This document shows positions 28,393-34,610 of a stretch of DNA of 64,000 nt, one piece after another. This DNA comes from Weeksellaceae bacterium. Lineage in GTDB: Bacteria > Bacteroidota > Bacteroidia > Flavobacteriales > Weeksellaceae. The notes under the pieces are model-generated. The model was not told the DNA's origin and searched no databases. It was given only the letters and a program-made list of their open reading frames with translations. The stretch lies in assembly GCA_022013695.1 (NCBI GenBank), contig JAKLPS010000020.1, positions 62,001-126,000 of the forward strand. Direction: 5' to 3'. The translations under genes were made by a program, and so were the position numbers. The number at the start of each line of letters is the position of its first letter. The stretch's first letter is position 1.

Positions 28393-31300
28393 TTACCTGA
28401 AATACGACACCCCACTTTTGAAGATATTATGATAATTCGCAGTAGGGATGTTTTTCAGCAAGCCTTCTGCAAAGCGTTCCGGATGTCCCATTCTGCCAAA
28501 TATTTTGCCGCACGGGCTGGTAATTCCCTCGATTCCGAACAAGGAATTATTGGGGTTGAACGGCATTCCGTGAGCGATGTTTCCGTCGAAATCTATGTAT
28601 TGTGTTGCGATCTGTCCATTTTCATATAAGTTACGGATTTCTCCTTCCGATGCCATAAATCGACCTTCTCCGTGGGAAATAGGAATCGTAAAAACTTGAT
28701 CTTTCATTCCTTTGAGCCAAGGAGATTCGTCATTGACGACTTTCACCGTTACCATCTGCGAAATGTGTCTTCTGATCGCGTTGTGAGCCAGAGTAGGAGA
28801 GGCCTCGTCCAAATCCTTGATTCTTCCGTAAGGCAGCAATCCCGATTTCACTAAAGCCTGAAAACCGTTGCAGATCCCGATAATCATTCCGTCTCTGTCT
28901 AGCAATTCGTGAACGGCATTTTTCATCTTTTCGTTTTTCAAAGCATTAACAATGAATTTGGCGGAACCATCCGGCTCGTCGCCGGCAGAAAAACCGCCTG
29001 AGAAAGCCAAAATCTGAGACGTTTTAATTTCCTCCACCCACGCATCGATGCTTTCGTCCAATAACCGGTGATTGATATTGATCAATGGCAAACTGCGGAC
29101 GATGGCGCCTTCTTTTGCAAAAGCATTTGCTGTCTCGTACTCGCAGTTGGTTCCCGGGAAAATGGGGACAAAGACTTTGGGCAGAGCGATGCCGTGTTTT
29201 TTAACGGAGATATTTCTTGGGTTGATTGAGTTTAATTTCTCATCGATATCCAATATTATCTTTTCTTTTTCAACGGTTGGAAATAGGTTTTCGAAAGTAA
29301 CGGTATTTGCTTTAAGTAATGTTTCGATTTCAAAATCTAAGGTGTTAATTTTTAAAAACTTGTCATTTGAAACTTTACCGATTAGTTGAAGTAAATTTGA
29401 ACTTAATTCTTCCCTGGCTTCGATGATGAAACTTCCAATATTTTTGGCCAATAAAATGTTATCATCAGTAACATTTATCTCAGCGCCTAATCTGTTTCCA
29501 AAACTCATTTTTGCCAATGCAACGGCCACGCCGCCGTCCTTTACCGTTTTCACCGAAACAATTTTTCCGCCTTTGATATTTTCGAAAATGAATTCGTAAA
29601 CCGATTTCAAATTTTCATAATTCGGAAGTCCGTTTTCCTGTGGAATATGATTGAAGAGATACAATTTATTTCCGGCATTTTTAAATTCAGGAGAAATGAT
29701 ATTTTTCTTTTCGCCGTTGGCACAAGCGAAAGAAATCAATGTGGGCGGAACATTCAAGTCTTGATACGTTCCACTCATCGAATCTTTGCCGCCAATCGCT
29801 GCCAAACCAAGGTTCATCTGCGCATCGTAAGCTCCCAGTAAAGAAGCCAAAGGCTTGCCCCATTTCTCAGGATTTTGCCCCAGCTTTTCGAAATATTCTT
29901 GGAAACTCAATCGGATATTTTTGTAATCGCCACCCATTGCCACGATTTTTGCGACACTTTCTACAACGGTATAGGCAGCTCCTAGTAATGAGTTTTGCTT
30001 TGAAATTTCGGCATCAAATCCCCAACTTGCCAAAGAAACTGTTTCGACATTTTTTGCTCCTAAAACCGGCAATGTCTGAGCGCTTCCTTCCATCAAAGTC
30101 TGCTGATATTTCCCACCCAGAGGCATCGCAACCGTAGTCGCACCAACGGAGGAATCAAACATTTCCAACAAGCCTTTTTGAGAAGCAACATTTTTATCGC
30201 TCAATATTTTAAAAAAATTGGCTTCGCTGAACTCTGTTTTTTCGTTTTTTAATTTTTGCAGATGCGTCACTTTGACGTCTTGAGATTTGGAACAGCCGTT
30301 GGTGTTTAAAAATTCTCTTGAAAGGTCAACGATTTTTTCGCCTTTCCAGAACATCTGCATTCTTCCGGAATCGGTCACTTTTGCAACTTCCACAGCCACA
30401 ATGTTTTCCGCCTCACAGAACTTGATGAATTTTTCTTTATCATTTGGCTCGACAACCACGGCCATTCTTTCCTGAGATTCCGAAATTGCAAGCTCGGTTC
30501 CGTTGAGACCTTCGTATTTCAAGGGTAAAACGTCCAAATTGATTTCCAAAGAATCGGCGATTTCACCGATCGCGACAGAAATGCCTCCTGCGCCGAAGTC
30601 GTTTGATTTTTTAATCAGCCTCGTCACTTCAGGATTTCTGAATAATCTCTGAATTTTGCGTTCTTCCACGGCATTTCCTTTCTGTACTTCCGAACTCATC
30701 GTGTGGATGGAAGTTTCGTCTTGCTCTTTCGAACTTCCGCTTGCGCCGCCAACGCCGTCACGACCTGTGGCTCCGCCTAAGATGATAATCAAGTCGCCCG
30801 TTGCTGGTTTGTCTCGTCGCACCCAATCTACGGGAACGGCGCCTGCTACGAATCCGACTTCCATTCTCTTTGCTTTGTAACCTTCGTCATAGATTTCGGA
30901 AACCATTGTCGTCGCCAAACCGATTTGGTTACCGTAAGAAGAATAGCCGTTTGCTGCCTGTTTGGTGATGGTTTTTTGCGGTAATTTTCCCGGTAAAGTT
31001 TGATCAATCGGTTCCAAAACATCGGCTGCACCCGTCAATCTCATCGCCTGAAAAACGAAAGAACGGCCGGACAGCGGATCTCTGATAGCGCCGCCTAAAC
31101 ACGTGGAAGCGCCACCAAAAGGTTCGATTTCCGTCGGGTGATTGTGGGTCTCGTTTTTGAATAATAAGTACCACGGTTCTTTTTTGCCATCGTATTCCGC
31201 TTCGATTTGGATGGTGCAAGCGTTGATCTCGTCGGAAACGACGAGGTTTTCCAAATGGCCTGTTTTGTGAAAATATTTTGCACAAACGGTGGCCAAATCC

Positions 31301-32091
31301 ATTAGCGAAATGGGTTTTAATTCGCGACCCAAGAATTTTCTTTTCTCAATATAATCATTGAAAATCGTTTCCAGTGTGTGTTTAAATTGCCCATCGAATT
31401 GAATATCAGAAAGTTCTGTTTCGAAGGTCGTGTGACGGCAATGATCGCTCCAATAAGTATCTAAAACTTTCAGTTCCGTTTCGGTGGGATTTCTTTGTTC
31501 TGCTATAAAATATTCCTGAATGAATTTTAAATCGTCCAAACCCAAGGCAAATCCGTGATTGTTAAAGAATTCCTCTAACTGAGCATCATCAAAATTAATA
31601 AAACCTTCGTGAACAATCACTTTTGATGGTGTTTCTTCCGCAGGAAAATCAACAACAGAGAGATCTTTTTCCCGGGATTCTACTTTGTTGATTAGCAGAT
31701 CTTTGATTTTACTTAAATCAGAATCTGAAACTCCTTTAAACTCAATCAATTTTCCGCTTCGGACTTTGGATTTTTCATTTCCGGTAAGTAGAGCGATGCA
31801 TTGCTGCGCTGAATCGGCACGTTGATCGTACTGCCCGGGCAAAAATTCCATCGCGAAATAGATGCCTTGCGCAGGATTTTCTTCGTGCAGGATATCAGTC
31901 ACAGGATCAACAAAAGTGTTGTTGACGACTTTTTCGAATTCGCCATCGTTTAATCCAAAAATATCGTAAATATTATAGACTTTCACATTTTTGATCGACG
32001 GAATTACCGCTTTTACTTCGTCAAAAATGCTAGGGCTTTCTACATCGAAAATTCCTTTTTTTTCTACGAAAATTCTTTTACTTTGAGACAT
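28393..32091 (-). CDS. purL: Phosphoribosylformylglycinamidine synthase (single-chain)
   Basis: A 1232-residue single-chain FGAM synthase, which converts FGAR to FGAM with ATP and glutamine in purine synthesis. The N-terminal domain and linker lead into the synthetase with TYWSDHCRHTTFETEL, NETHNHPTEIEPFGGASTC and DFGAGGISVAIGEI. The C-terminal ~260 residues are the class I amidotransferase: FPGTNCEYE, the nucleophile Cys in GICNGFQALVKSG and the His/Glu in RMGHPERFAEG. Length matches the proteobacterial-type large PurL (about 1,230-1,300), not the PurLQS complex. It ends near 28.4 kb and purB lies upstream on the same strand, separated by the RAYT unit. Confidence 0.96.
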   Translation of the reverse strand: MSQSKRIFVEKKGIFDVESPSIFDEVKAVIPSIKNVKVYNIYDIFGLNDGEFEKVVNNTFVDPVTDILHEENPAQGIYFAMEFLPGQYDQRADSAQQCIALLTGNEKSKVRSGKLIEFKGVSDSDLSKIKDLLINKVESREKDLSVVDFPAEETPSKVIVHEGFINFDDAQLEEFFNNHGFALGLDDLKFIQEYFIAEQRNPTETELKVLDTYWSDHCRHTTFETELSDIQFDGQFKHTLETIFNDYIEKRKFLGRELKPISLMDLATVCAKYFHKTGHLENLVVSDEINACTIQIEAEYDGKKEPWYLLFKNETHNHPTEIEPFGGASTCLGGAIRDPLSGRSFVFQAMRLTGAADVLEPIDQTLPGKLPQKTITKQAANGYSSYGNQIGLATTMVSEIYDEGYKAKRMEVGFVAGAVPVDWVRRDKPATGDLIIILGGATGRDGVGGASGSSKEQDETSIHTMSSEVQKGNAVEERKIQRLFRNPEVTRLIKKSNDFGAGGISVAIGEIADSLEINLDVLPLKYEGLNGTELAISESQERMAVVVEPNDKEKFIKFCEAENIVAVEVAKVTDSGRMQMFWKGEKIVDLSREFLNTNGCSKSQDVKVTHLQKLKNEKTEFSEANFFKILSDKNVASQKGLLEMFDSSVGATTVAMPLGGKYQQTLMEGSAQTLPVLGAKNVETVSLASWGFDAEISKQNSLLGAAYTVVESVAKIVAMGGDYKNIRLSFQEYFEKLGQNPEKWGKPLASLLGAYDAQMNLGLAAIGGKDSMSGTYQDLNVPPTLISFACANGEKKNIISPEFKNAGNKLYLFNHIPQENGLPNYENLKSVYEFIFENIKGGKIVSVKTVKDGGVAVALAKMSFGNRLGAEINVTDDNILLAKNIGSFIIEAREELSSNLLQLIGKVSNDKFLKINTLDFEIETLLKANTVTFENLFPTVEKEKIILDIDEKLNSINPRNISVKKHGIALPKVFVPIFPGTNCEYETANAFAKEGAIVRSLPLININHRLLDESIDAWVEEIKTSQILAFSGGFSAGDEPDGSAKFIVNALKNEKMKNAVHELLDRDGMIIGICNGFQALVKSGLLPYGRIKDLDEASPTLAHNAIRRHISQMVTVKVVNDESPWLKGMKDQVFTIPISHGEGRFMASEGEIRNLYENGQIATQYIDFDGNIAHGMPFNPNNSLFGIEGITSPCGKIFGRMGHPERFAEGLLKNIPTANYHNIFKSGVSYFR

Positions 32092-32174
32092 TAGATGTCG
32101 GATTTTATGATTATTTTATTTTTTGTTTAATCCGATTGACGGTTTAATTATTAGTTTGTCAAGTTTTTTACATA

Positions 32175-32400
32175 CTTGATTCCGTAGGAATCATATCTGT
32201 GTAGAACCTGTTCGATCAAAAGGCACAGTCCGTAGGACTGCTATTTTCTTCTTGATTCTGTAGGAATCATATCTGTGTAGAACCTATTAGATTAACAGTC
32301 GAAGTCCGTAGGACTGCCATTTTCTTCTTGATTCCGTAGGAATCATATCTGTGTAGAACTATCAGCTTAATAGGCGCAGTCCGTAGGACTGCTATTTTCC
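32175..32400. repeat. Tandem 76-bp repeat array of REP-like palindromes (3 units)
   Basis: Units begin at 32175, 32251 and 32327, a period of exactly 76 bp; the third is cut at about 32400. Each holds two palindromes with the same CCGTAGGA core: GATTCCGTAGGAATC (32178-32192, 32254-32268 with C to T, 32330-32344) and CAGTCCGTAGGACTG (32226-32240, 32303-32315 shortened, 32377-32391). The common segment after the first palindrome reads ATATCTGTGTAGAAC. The array abuts the 3' end of a RAYT gene, and a related palindrome lies on its other side, so these are likely its cognate REP elements. Confidence 0.88.
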
Positions 32401-32438
32401 CGTCATTTCCCAAAAATAAATCTCCTGCAATCATAAAA

Positions 32439-32912
32439 TTAATTTTCATCGTCATAGAATTCAAACAAATATTCATTTTTAAATTCTATTTCGAAAGCCT
32501 GAAGCATTTGAAGATACTCTTCTCTAAAACTTTTCTTTGAATGATGTTTTTCCTGATTCAATATATAATTTACCACTTTTTCCTTCTGACTTTTTGCATA
32601 AGAAAAAGCACCATAGCCTTCCTGCCAAGAAAATTTACCCAAACATAATTTCTTATCATTAATAAAATTGGTTGATTCAACTTTAACTGTTTTAATCAAG
32701 TCCGGAATTGTAATCTGCAAATTTTTATAACTGAAGAAAATATGAAGATGATCAGGATTTCCATAAATAGCTAATACTTTTTGTTTTTTGTTGGTAAATA
32801 TTCCACAAATATATTTTTCAATTTCATCTCTTACTTCTGATTTAATTTTAATATCCCGTCCATTTGTAGCAAAAACAGCTTGAATATAAATTTGGGTATA
32901 AGTGTTAGGCAT
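32439..32912 (-). CDS. REP-associated tyrosine transposase (IS200-like Y1 family)
   Basis: A 157-residue HUH endonuclease of the Y1/IS200-like group. The HUH pair is HLHIF (His55, His57) and the probable catalytic tyrosine is Tyr116 in VVNYILNQ, with Gln120 in the usual place; GYGAFSYAKSQ precedes it, as in the family, and EKHHSKKSFREEY follows. The gene is flanked on both sides by palindromes sharing CCGTAGGA, not by IS200-type single hairpin ends, so it fits a domesticated RAYT rather than a mobile IS. It lies between purB and purL and is intact. Confidence 0.87.
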   Translation of the reverse strand: MPNTYTQIYIQAVFATNGRDIKIKSEVRDEIEKYICGIFTNKKQKVLAIYGNPDHLHIFFSYKNLQITIPDLIKTVKVESTNFINDKKLCLGKFSWQEGYGAFSYAKSQKEKVVNYILNQEKHHSKKSFREEYLQMLQAFEIEFKNEYLFEFYDDEN

Positions 32913-32944
32913 AAAATTTTATTTTTATCATTCTTACAAAGATA

Positions 32945-32961
32945 GCATTCCTACGGAATGC
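32945..32961. repeat. REP-like palindrome upstream of the RAYT gene
   Basis: GCATTCCTACGGAATGC is a 17-bp near-perfect palindrome. Its complement contains the same TCCGTAGGA core as the array at 32175-32400, in the opposite orientation, 33 bp upstream of the RAYT start. It forms the other boundary of the RAYT/REP unit. Confidence 0.75.
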
Positions 32962-33028
32962 CCCTTCACACCAAGCTCCTTTTTACATCCATTTTATTCC
33001 CTCAGAACAAATTAAATCGCAAACTTAA

Positions 33029-34456
33029 TTATACTTTAAGATCAGATTCCAAACCCATCAAATCTTGATTTGCGTCCAAAATTGGCTGAACTTCATTGGC
33101 GACAAATTCCTCCGTTTGTATAGTAGAAAAGCCAATAAAATTTCGAGGATCAAGAACTTCCATCAATTTCGATTTATCCAATTTCAACGAATGATCGTTC
33201 AGAATCCGCTCGATCAGGTCGTTTTCCTTGCCTTCTTCTTTTACTTTTTTCGAAGCTTCCATCGAGTGAAGTCGTATGACTTCGTGGATTTCTTGTCGGT
33301 CGCCGCCTGCTTTCACTTCTTCCATTATGATATATTCGGTGGCCATAAAAGGAAGTTCTTCTTCGATATGTTTATTAATTCTGTTCGGATAAACCACGAT
33401 GCCGTTCATAATATTATTCCAAATCAACAAGATCGCATCCACTGCTAAAAAGGCCTGCGGAATAGTCAAGCGTTTGTTGGCAGAATCGTCCAAAGTTCTT
33501 TCGAACCATTGCGTGGAAGCGACCATCGCAGAACTCGTGGTCAAAGACATCACAAATTTGGCCAGAGCTCCTATGCGTTCGCTGCGCATCGGATTGCGCT
33601 TATAAGCCATTGCCGAGGATCCGATTTGGCTTTTTTCGAATGGTTCCTCAATTTCTTTAAGGTTTTGAAGCAGGCGCAAATCGTTGGTGAATTTATGCGC
33701 GGACTGAGCGATATTTCCTAATAAAGAGACCACTTTTGCATCAATTTTTCTGTCATAAGTCTGCCCGGAAACGCCGAAAACCTTTTCAAATCCAAATCTT
33801 TTAGACAATTCTTTGTCCAAGTATTTCACTTTTGAATAATCACCGTTGAAAAGCTCCAGAAAACTTGCCGCCGTTCCGGTGGTCCCTTTTACACCTCTGA
33901 ATCTTAATGTTTCCAAGAAGAAATCAAGCTCCTCGATGTCCAAAACCAAACTTTGCAACCACAGCGTCGCCCTTTTTCCAACAGTCGTCAACTGAGCGGG
34001 TTGGAAATGGGTAAAACCTAAGGTTGGCAGATCTTTGTATTGAATTGCAAAATCAGCCAGATTCTTCATCACATTGACCATTTTTTTCTTGATGATCAAA
34101 AGGCCGTCGCGGATTTGAATTAGGTCTGTGTTATCTCCTACAAATGCGGAAGTTGCTCCCAGGTGGATGATTCCTCTTGCCGAAGGCGCTGCATCTCCGT
34201 AAGTGTGAACGTGAGCCATCACATCGTGGCGAAATTTCTTTTCGTATTCTGCAGCAATTTGATAATCTATATTTTCCACATTGGCTTTCAAATCCGAAAT
34301 CTGCGCATCGGAGATTTCCAGACCAAGATCTTTTTCGATTTCTGCAAGGGCTACCCAGAGTTTTCGCCAGGTGCGGAACTTGTTGTTGTGGGAAAAATTA
34401 AAAAGCATTTCTTCACTGGAATAGCGCTCTTCCAATGGGTTTTTGTAGGAATTCAT
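33029..34456 (-). CDS. purB: Adenylosuccinate lyase
   Basis: A 475-residue member of the fumarase/aspartase superfamily that acts twice in purine synthesis (SAICAR to AICAR, adenylosuccinate to AMP). The ATG at 34456 starts MNSYKNPLEERYSSEEML; a GTG at 34486 sits within a -7-like element and is unlikely. Landmarks: HDVMAHVHTYGD, HLGATSAFVGDNTDL, GFTHFQPAQLTTVGKRA and the superfamily signature GSSAMAYKRNPMRSERI. It is on the same strand as purL, 0.9 kb upstream of it. Confidence 0.95.
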   Translation of the reverse strand: MNSYKNPLEERYSSEEMLFNFSHNNKFRTWRKLWVALAEIEKDLGLEISDAQISDLKANVENIDYQIAAEYEKKFRHDVMAHVHTYGDAAPSARGIIHLGATSAFVGDNTDLIQIRDGLLIIKKKMVNVMKNLADFAIQYKDLPTLGFTHFQPAQLTTVGKRATLWLQSLVLDIEELDFFLETLRFRGVKGTTGTAASFLELFNGDYSKVKYLDKELSKRFGFEKVFGVSGQTYDRKIDAKVVSLLGNIAQSAHKFTNDLRLLQNLKEIEEPFEKSQIGSSAMAYKRNPMRSERIGALAKFVMSLTTSSAMVASTQWFERTLDDSANKRLTIPQAFLAVDAILLIWNNIMNGIVVYPNRINKHIEEELPFMATEYIIMEEVKAGGDRQEIHEVIRLHSMEASKKVKEEGKENDLIERILNDHSLKLDKSKLMEVLDPRNFIGFSTIQTEEFVANEVQPILDANQDLMGLESDLKV

Positions 34457-34610
34457 CGATGGCTTTCTTTTTACTTTTAGATACACAAAATTAAGAAAAA
34501 TTACCGGTTGAATAAAATGAAATTAAAGCCTCGGACGGATTTAACCAAATGATAATTCTATAATCTTACATTCGGCGAGATATTTGTATAAAAAAAAAAA
34601 TCTAATAAAA

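Follow-up and report, generated by a model that had tools for sequence, protein, structure and literature searches.

We describe a small Y1 (HUH) transposase-like gene of a Weeksellaceae bacterium that lies among short DNA hairpins, which recur beside related genes and co-vary with the encoded protein. Gene and hairpins probably form a REPtron-like system whose Y1 enzyme is of the IS200 type (class 1, subclass 1.2), and for this enzyme comparison of sequences predicts hairpin binding, cleavage and joining. Its behaviour is close to that of REPtrons, and membership of the RAYT group fails on the protein signature and on the position of a conserved tag beside the hairpins.

The window analysed is a 64,000-nucleotide stretch of contig JAKLPS010000020.1 (positions 62,001 to 126,000), to which all coordinates below refer. 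The Y1 gene stands between two genes that we take, from general knowledge of the sequence, to be purL (28393..32091) and purB (33029..34486). The genes purB, Y1 and purL are co-directional, all on the minus strand, and the hairpins occupy the gaps between these three. The purL gene, 92% identical to that of Chryseobacterium binzhouense, agrees with the original prediction of a Bacteroidota host. The features of the locus are:

28393..32091, minus strand: purL, flanking host gene (context)
32175..32399, plus strand: tandem array of 3 units x 76 bp, each H1, tag, spacer, H2 and tag; 3' of the Y1 gene
32177..32193, plus strand: H1 of unit 1, TGATTCC-GTA-GGAATCA, with tag TATCTGTGTAG at 32194-32204; covariance-model match
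32226..32240, plus strand: H2 of unit 1, CAGTCC-GTA-GGACTG; covariance-model match
32253..32269, plus strand: H1 of unit 2, a CTGTAGGA variant with one closing pair lost; placed by spacing and folding
32303..32315, plus strand: H2 of unit 2, AGTCC-GTA-GGACT; covariance-model match
32329..32345, plus strand: H1 of unit 3; placed by folding, the covariance-model match being partial and marginal (10.6 bits)
32376..32392, plus strand: H2 of unit 3, GCAGTCC-GTA-GGACTGC; covariance-model match
32439..32912, minus strand: Y1 (HUH) transposase-like gene, 157 aa; Pfam Y1_Tnp match, invariant residues and AlphaFold model
32945..32961, minus strand: upstream hairpin GCATTCC-GTA-GGAATGC, then TATCTTTGTAA; inverted relative to the array
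33029..34486, minus strand: purB, flanking host gene (context)

A predicted IS200-type Y1 transposase

The protein matches Pfam Y1_Tnp (E 1.6e-19), which bears out the broader part of the original prediction of a RAYT-type transposase, namely a relationship to the Y1 HUH transposases. It contains DHLH at residues 54-57, W96-Q97 and the motif YILNQEKHH, in which Y116 is the presumed catalytic tyrosine. Two alignments, one of 13 and one of 29 sequences, show no variation at residues H55, H57, W96, Q97, Y116, Q120, H123 and H124; L146 and L170 were excluded from protein alignment for their stop codons, and the larger set also omits L121, L133, L139, L175 and L182, for which no error had been noted. 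An AlphaFold model (pLDDT 90.4) resembles ISDra2 most closely (Z 12.7), ahead of IS608 (11.9) and the REP transposase 4er8 (10.2), and all eight PDB profile matches of the protein are IS200/IS605-type transposases. It scores 48.7 bits against the NCBIfam IS200 transposase model (cut-off 55) and 21.4 bits against the NCBI REP-transposase model REP_Tyr_transpos (cut-off 80).

In the class descriptions of one broad survey, TnpA-Y1 subclass 1.2 is characterised by Y---Q--HH, WQ and DH[IV]H, a median length of 148, low copy number and occurrence in Bacteroidota (Quentin et al. 2018, PMC6006769). The protein described here is like that subclass in signature, with Y---Q--HH, WQ and DH-u-H matched and L for I/V in DHLH, in length (157 residues), in host phylum and in copy number, two Y1 genes, 35% identical to each other, being found in the window's genome. 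We therefore place it provisionally in subclass 1.2, by signature and profile scores rather than by a tree including the published set. The narrower label of RAYT does not hold: RAYTs are marked by Y---NP (PMC6006769, in its signature descriptions) or NP(L/V)(R/K)xG after the tyrosine, whereas this protein reads YILNQEKHH, falls far below the REP-transposase cut-off and has hairpins with no GTAG 0-2 nt before the foot.

Hairpin design and the 76-bp array

Tandem Repeats Finder reports the array at 32175-32399 with period 76, 3.0 copies, 88% matches and 0% indels. Within each unit H1 is followed by TATCTGTGTAG, and H2 lies about 48 bp further on; H2 consists of AGTCC-GTA-GGACT plus up to two extra pairs, followed by GCTATTTTC or GCCATTTTC, with perfect stems of 6, 5 and 7 bp in units 1-3 and the full form (G)CAGTCC-GTA-GGACTG(C). 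The original prediction had described units of exactly 76 bp, which fits the H1 spacings (76 and 76) and misses by one base for H2 (76 and 75). Its two palindromes with a common core are likewise nearly right, CCGTAGGA being present in five of the six array palindromes while the second H1 copy reads CTGTAGGA; that copy (32253..32269) gave no covariance-model match at E 1. The third variant that it placed upstream of the gene in inverse orientation is there, on the minus strand at 32945-32961, and is the top covariance-model match within the window (34.1 bits). Single-stranded DNA folding gave z-scores of -2.8, -1.7 and -4.1 for the three units (plus strand) and of -5.1 and -4.4 for the two strands of the upstream hairpin.

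Across loci the hairpins are built alike: the stem has 5 bp, the loop has 3 nt, and a tag of about 13 nt on the 3' side ends in TAG. With the GTA loop on the top strand, the consensus after the stem is approximately G-R-[AC]-[AC]-T-n-T-T-n-n-T-A-G (TATCTGTGTAG in clade A). Conservation outside the stem is one-sided, bases 5' of the stem being little conserved. The alignment holds 63 of 94 candidates, one per locus, with near-duplicates removed by hand and five perfect pairs required, so that its 100% pairing is by construction; three of the five pairs vary on both sides. GT[AG]G 0-2 nt 5' of the foot is absent from the consensus, and each position from -12 to -8 carries at most 0.19 bits. On the GTA strand, GTAG instead spans the loop and in some clades also closes the 3' tag; on the opposite strand the tag does lie 5' of the foot, but it starts with CTA(C), some 9 nt off.

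Guide/target pairing of the IS608 kind was looked for by eye in the consensus, and no conserved complementary pair was found outside the stem. The TnpA-REP enzymes described in PMC8266576 are reported to cut at CT or CA near the REP. CTGT is present in many tags and absent from some, so we propose no cut site.

Hairpins flank homologous genes

We collected 132 homologous loci, comprising 30 from the window's genus, 79 named loci (the usable ones of the 80 top-ranking among 554 relatives from bacterial genomes at large) and 23 further loci of the family; L122 was left out, its reading frame having been missed by the motif finder. Removing duplicates (L115 = L196, L116 = L197, L117 = L198) and merging L046 with L047, which come from two different genomes but do not differ in the gene or in the 100 bp on each side, left 128 distinct loci. 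The figures for flank inverted repeats, the 27 representatives, paralogues, the tag consensus and shuffled flanks still include these duplicates, which make little difference. Loci outside Bacteroidota are mostly from metagenome bins and may be misassigned, that of Desulfonema magnum being from a complete genome.

A CC-GTA-GG hairpin lies within 400 bp of the gene in 83 of the 128 distinct loci, and 30 of the remaining 45 have a tagged hairpin with another loop (GAA, AGC, ATA, AGA, GGA and others) or stem, which leaves 15 with neither a GTA hairpin nor a tagged hairpin within that distance. Hairpins of the form CC-(GTA/ATA/GTG)-GG number 293 in the 98.9 kb within 400 bp of the genes, compared to 58 in 464 kb farther out, a 24-fold higher density (309 and 59 over all 132 loci, before duplicates were removed). 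When CC-GTA-GG sites were chosen regardless of the outer stem, all three outer pairs were present in 253 of 290 near sites and 50 of 83 far ones; the paired far sites are probably members of arrays running on. Tagged hairpins with any loop number 227 near the genes and 48 far from them, with none in flanks shuffled at constant base composition; the tag pattern used for this count came from many of the same loci, and ATA-loop hairpins from 8 of the 45 loci lacking a GTA hairpin contributed to the tag consensus.

The hairpins closest to the gene face each other in inverted orientation across it, with 71 of 76 in the expected orientation upstream and 69 of 74 downstream. Flanks of 150 bp or more on both sides were available for 124 of the 132 loci; inverted repeats scoring at least 14 link the upstream and downstream flanks in 81 of these, compared to none when the flanks were shuffled (preserving base composition only) and nine when one flank was exchanged for that of another locus. 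Direct-orientation repeats link the flanks at 55 of the 124, which is partly due to the palindromic nature of the hairpins. At the genes of relatives, hairpins again come in pairs some 50 bp apart, in direct H1-H2 order, and two further composite arrays exist in the window's genome; the composite two-palindrome unit, first taken as unusual, is not unique to this site.

Hairpins follow the protein

Distances between proteins correlate with distances between their hairpins and tags (r 0.77 over 89 loci, with none of 2000 permutations as high), and the correlation persists among 27 representatives less than 70% identical to one another (r 0.39, reached in one of 2000 permutations). Eight hand-picked genomes with two paralogues and comparable hairpins allow the two partners to be compared within one genome: the hairpins of 16 of 16 genes resemble those of some relative from a different genome more than they resemble the hairpins of the paralogue sharing their genome, a result that becomes 12 of 12 without the close relatives G002 and G019. 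This is the strongest indirect evidence that each protein may recognise its own hairpins. The palindromes do look like partners of the Y1 gene, as originally suggested.

Distribution across genomes

In the window's own genome, CCGTAGGA occurs 41 times compared to 71 for the reversed control, and this genome-wide count was set aside as uninformative, the motif not being over-represented here. Six of the 41 sites are at the locus; among the other 35, two reach a 5-bp stem and none a 6-bp stem. The covariance model finds ten matches in this genome, five at the locus, three on contig C29 and two on contig C8. The second Y1 gene, 35% identical to the first, has its nearest model-detected hairpins 1.4-3 kb off on C29, and both Y1 genes detected in the genome are absent from C8. 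The C29 matches belong to a composite array at about 3200-3500 of L038 (G000:C29:44000-50000) and those on C8 to one at about 850-1200 of L015 (G000:C8:45000-47000). Both arrays combine GTTCC-(G/A)TA-GGAAC and a tag (GACCGATAA or GACGGATATCG) with a longer palindrome, for example CGTTAGAATTCATTCTAACG or GGTTGGAATTTATTCCAACC. Since these arrays are composite too, the two-palindrome unit is recurring and not peculiar to the purL site.

The original prediction was to fall if the palindromes were restricted to this site and the protein also failed to bind them. The first half applies to the window's genome, where the locus's own hairpin type is confined to it; cognate-type hairpins are dispersed in many genomes of the family. 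Of 31 dispersed copies inspected in relatives, some of which belong to another element, 26 lie outside long open frames. Among 197 family genomes searched with the covariance model, 125 have the gene, and 100 of these contain hairpins at E<=1e-5; of the 72 that lack it, 10 do (Fisher p 2e-20), genomes without gene or hairpin being taken as the complement of G000-G196 on the assumption that both listings covered the same 197; the association is descriptive, since related genomes are not independent and the scoring of candidates had an upper limit. Hairpin-positive genomes make up 76 of the 80 with a close relative of the gene and 24 of the 45 with a distant one. We read the ten gene-less genomes with strong hairpins as holding relics. 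G001, G010 and G021 have no detected gene and keep some hairpins, which fits loss of the gene once the repeats had formed.

Beyond the family, the exact palindrome GCYCCGTAGGRGC has 96 copies in the Desulfonema magnum chromosome, compared to one for the reversed control, some in dense arrays around the gene and others spread round the chromosome. Counts of this one stem type in the other seven of eight named-locus genomes run from 0 to 11; G003 has 29, G018 27, G012 one and the window's genome none. Near the Y1 homologue of Desulfonema magnum (L143, NZ_CP061800.1 3075519-3081971) there are about ten head-to-tail hairpin units of about 50 bp.

A summed count of TCCGTAGGA, which exceeded its control in all 23 genomes of the genus, was discarded, as many of the matches belong to a different dispersed inverted-repeat element. 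This element, TTTGTCATTCCGTAGGAATCT...AGATTCCTACGGAATGACAAA, is about 52 bp long, or longer with AACCTAACGAAGTGGTTCGACGA inside, and occurs in G001, G010, G017, G019 and G021. It has the TCCGTAGGA core without the tag, and none of the 41 CCGTAGGA sites in the window's genome belongs to it.

Gene position, selection and hairpin differences between species

The Y1 gene adjoins purL at 20 loci of the window's genus and family, in 17 distinct genomes. L201-L203, at 82-83% identity, are not beside purL within 1.5 kb, and the gene has therefore probably moved at least once. Seven relatives have a purL-purB gap of 80-85 bp with neither Y1 gene nor hairpin inside. In L233/L246 (G010) the gap holds an unrelated short inverted-repeat sequence, and in L225, L232, L234-L237 and L239 (seven other relatives) a stretch of 1.1-1.4 kb. 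The purL-purB site seems open to insertions.

The Y1 gene is under purifying selection, with dN/dS of 0.04-0.18 for the 13 computable of 15 distinct relatives (18 comparisons). Its dN is about that of purL, and its dN/dS lies more often above than below purL's 0.02-0.11. A few relatives have stop codons in the gene.

The hairpins differ between species. The closest relative, whose protein is 97% identical, has 10.5 copies of the same 76-bp unit that stands at 3.0 copies here, and the genus has two further orthologous sites where only some of the species carry hairpin blocks. One of these two sites carries a 51-bp tandem array in G018. At site 1, the hairpin-less G016 retains part of the flank that is missing from G018 and G020; absences may be original or due to deletion. 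We also looked for insertion boundaries at places without hairpins, namely the short purL-purB gap and these two sites; they display presence and absence, with no precise target or ends.

In L046 (G019) and L047 (G002) the Y1 gene with 100 bp on each side is identical, within a 3.5-kb region of 95% identity. This identity of the gene unit hints at recent exchange or copying.

Relation to known systems and alternative explanations

The locus shares with RAYT REPtrons, as described in PMC2817692, PMC8266576 and PMC6006769, an HUH-Y1 gene with inverted hairpins on both sides, covariation of these hairpins with the protein, repeats arranged as tandem modules, orthologues kept at one site and, in relatives, dispersal of hairpins to intergenic sites. 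Like RAYT / TnpA-REP proteins the protein here has HuH and a single tyrosine (H55, H57 and Y116 invariant, activity predicted). It differs in lacking the NP signature, in hairpins that are mostly short with 3-nt loops, in a tag on the opposite side of the foot (GTA strand) and in pairs that are direct H1-H2 about 50 bp apart. Three RAYT orthologue pairs discussed in these papers (PMC2817692 / PMC8266576 / PMC6006769) are reported to evolve faster than their neighbours, unlike the Y1 gene here. With IS200/IS605 TnpA (ISDra2, IS608) the protein shares its modelled fold, catalytic residues and a hairpin-flanked gene; the locus differs in its fixed site within one clade in place of a multi-copy, near-identical mobile gene, and in its hairpin arrays and the dispersed gene-less hairpins of relatives.

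For subclass 1.2, Table 1 of the survey gives REP "no", and its text describes the subclass as 'generally without' IS200-type ends (PMC6006769). In this respect the loci here, with REP-like flanks, are unlike the subclass as reported. The survey's REP search looked for basal stems of 7-20 nt with GT[AG]G 0-2 nt away on their 5' side (PMC6006769), a rule that would miss 5-bp, 3'-tagged hairpins and that may explain the entry.

No description of these hairpins was found among titles and abstract openings in the open-access literature searched. PATEs, the palindrome-associated elements of haloarchaea, are gene-less units with IS200-type hairpins and in outline resemble the gene-less hairpins of relatives.

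As we picture the REPtron-like system, the protein would bind single-stranded hairpins with a stem of 5-8 bp, a loop of 3 nt and a 3' tag whose last bases are TAG, for example during replication, and Tyr116 would cut beside the hairpin before the strands are rejoined. Hairpin units would thereby be duplicated locally in tandem and, more rarely, give rise to new copies elsewhere, while the gene itself would stay mostly stationary, inherited vertically as a maintained, domesticated transposase. Binding, the strand used, the position of cleavage and the enzyme, rather than slippage, as maker of the arrays are what we infer here.

An ordinary or decaying IS200/IS605 element, with the hairpins as its own ends and the array an accident, finds support in the stop codons of some relatives, in profile matches confined to IS200/IS605-type structures and in a score that is closer to the cut-off as IS200 than as REP transposase. 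We consider it improbable, since the purL site carries one such gene in each of 17 distinct genomes, its dN/dS is low, the sole other Y1 gene found in the genome is 35% identical, there are arrays instead of one pair of ends, and gene-less hairpins are dispersed in relatives. That the hairpins are passive repeats, multiplied by replication slippage with the Y1 gene as a bystander, is a reading to which we give little weight: it predicts near-exact tandem periods such as those of 76, 50 and 51 bp, a typical product of slippage, and the identical gene units of G002 and G019 indicate that other exchange processes act too, yet it leaves unexplained why hairpins follow the clade of the protein rather than the genome and why they are inverted around the gene and so much denser there than farther out.

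The hairpins might also act as RNA, as terminators or leaders of purL, purB or the Y1 gene, since they are intergenic among three co-directional genes with the array shortly before purL. This is very improbable, as they occur in both orientations and, in relatives, at many unrelated sites, as purL and purB of seven relatives lie 80-85 bp apart with no hairpin between them, and as the region 31900-33200 has no Rfam match at E 1.

The REPtron-like system that we favour supplies candidate DNA partners for a transposase subclass listed without any in the one broad survey found (PMC6006769, Table 1), and suggests that REP-like systems are not limited to the RAYT clade; with its different hairpin and tag design it could serve as a comparison group for RAYT/REP function. 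A wider reading, for and against which we find the case evenly balanced, is that Y1 transposases were domesticated more than once into partners that make or maintain REPs, with subclass 1.2 having its own REP code, found in Bacteroidota and several further phyla and separate in origin from the RAYT clade and its GTAG-headed REPs. That code, taken jointly with repeated domestication and held in the same balance, would be a 5-bp stem, a 3-nt loop drawn from a few triplets and a 3' tag ending in TAG, often paired into units of 50-76 bp. The difference between 3 and 10.5 unit copies in close relatives, together with orthologous sites with and without hairpins, makes the role of the enzyme directly testable. 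As a separate observation, the array at 32175-32399 lies directly before the purL start codon, at a distance of about 84 bp, so differences in array length between species could affect purL expression.
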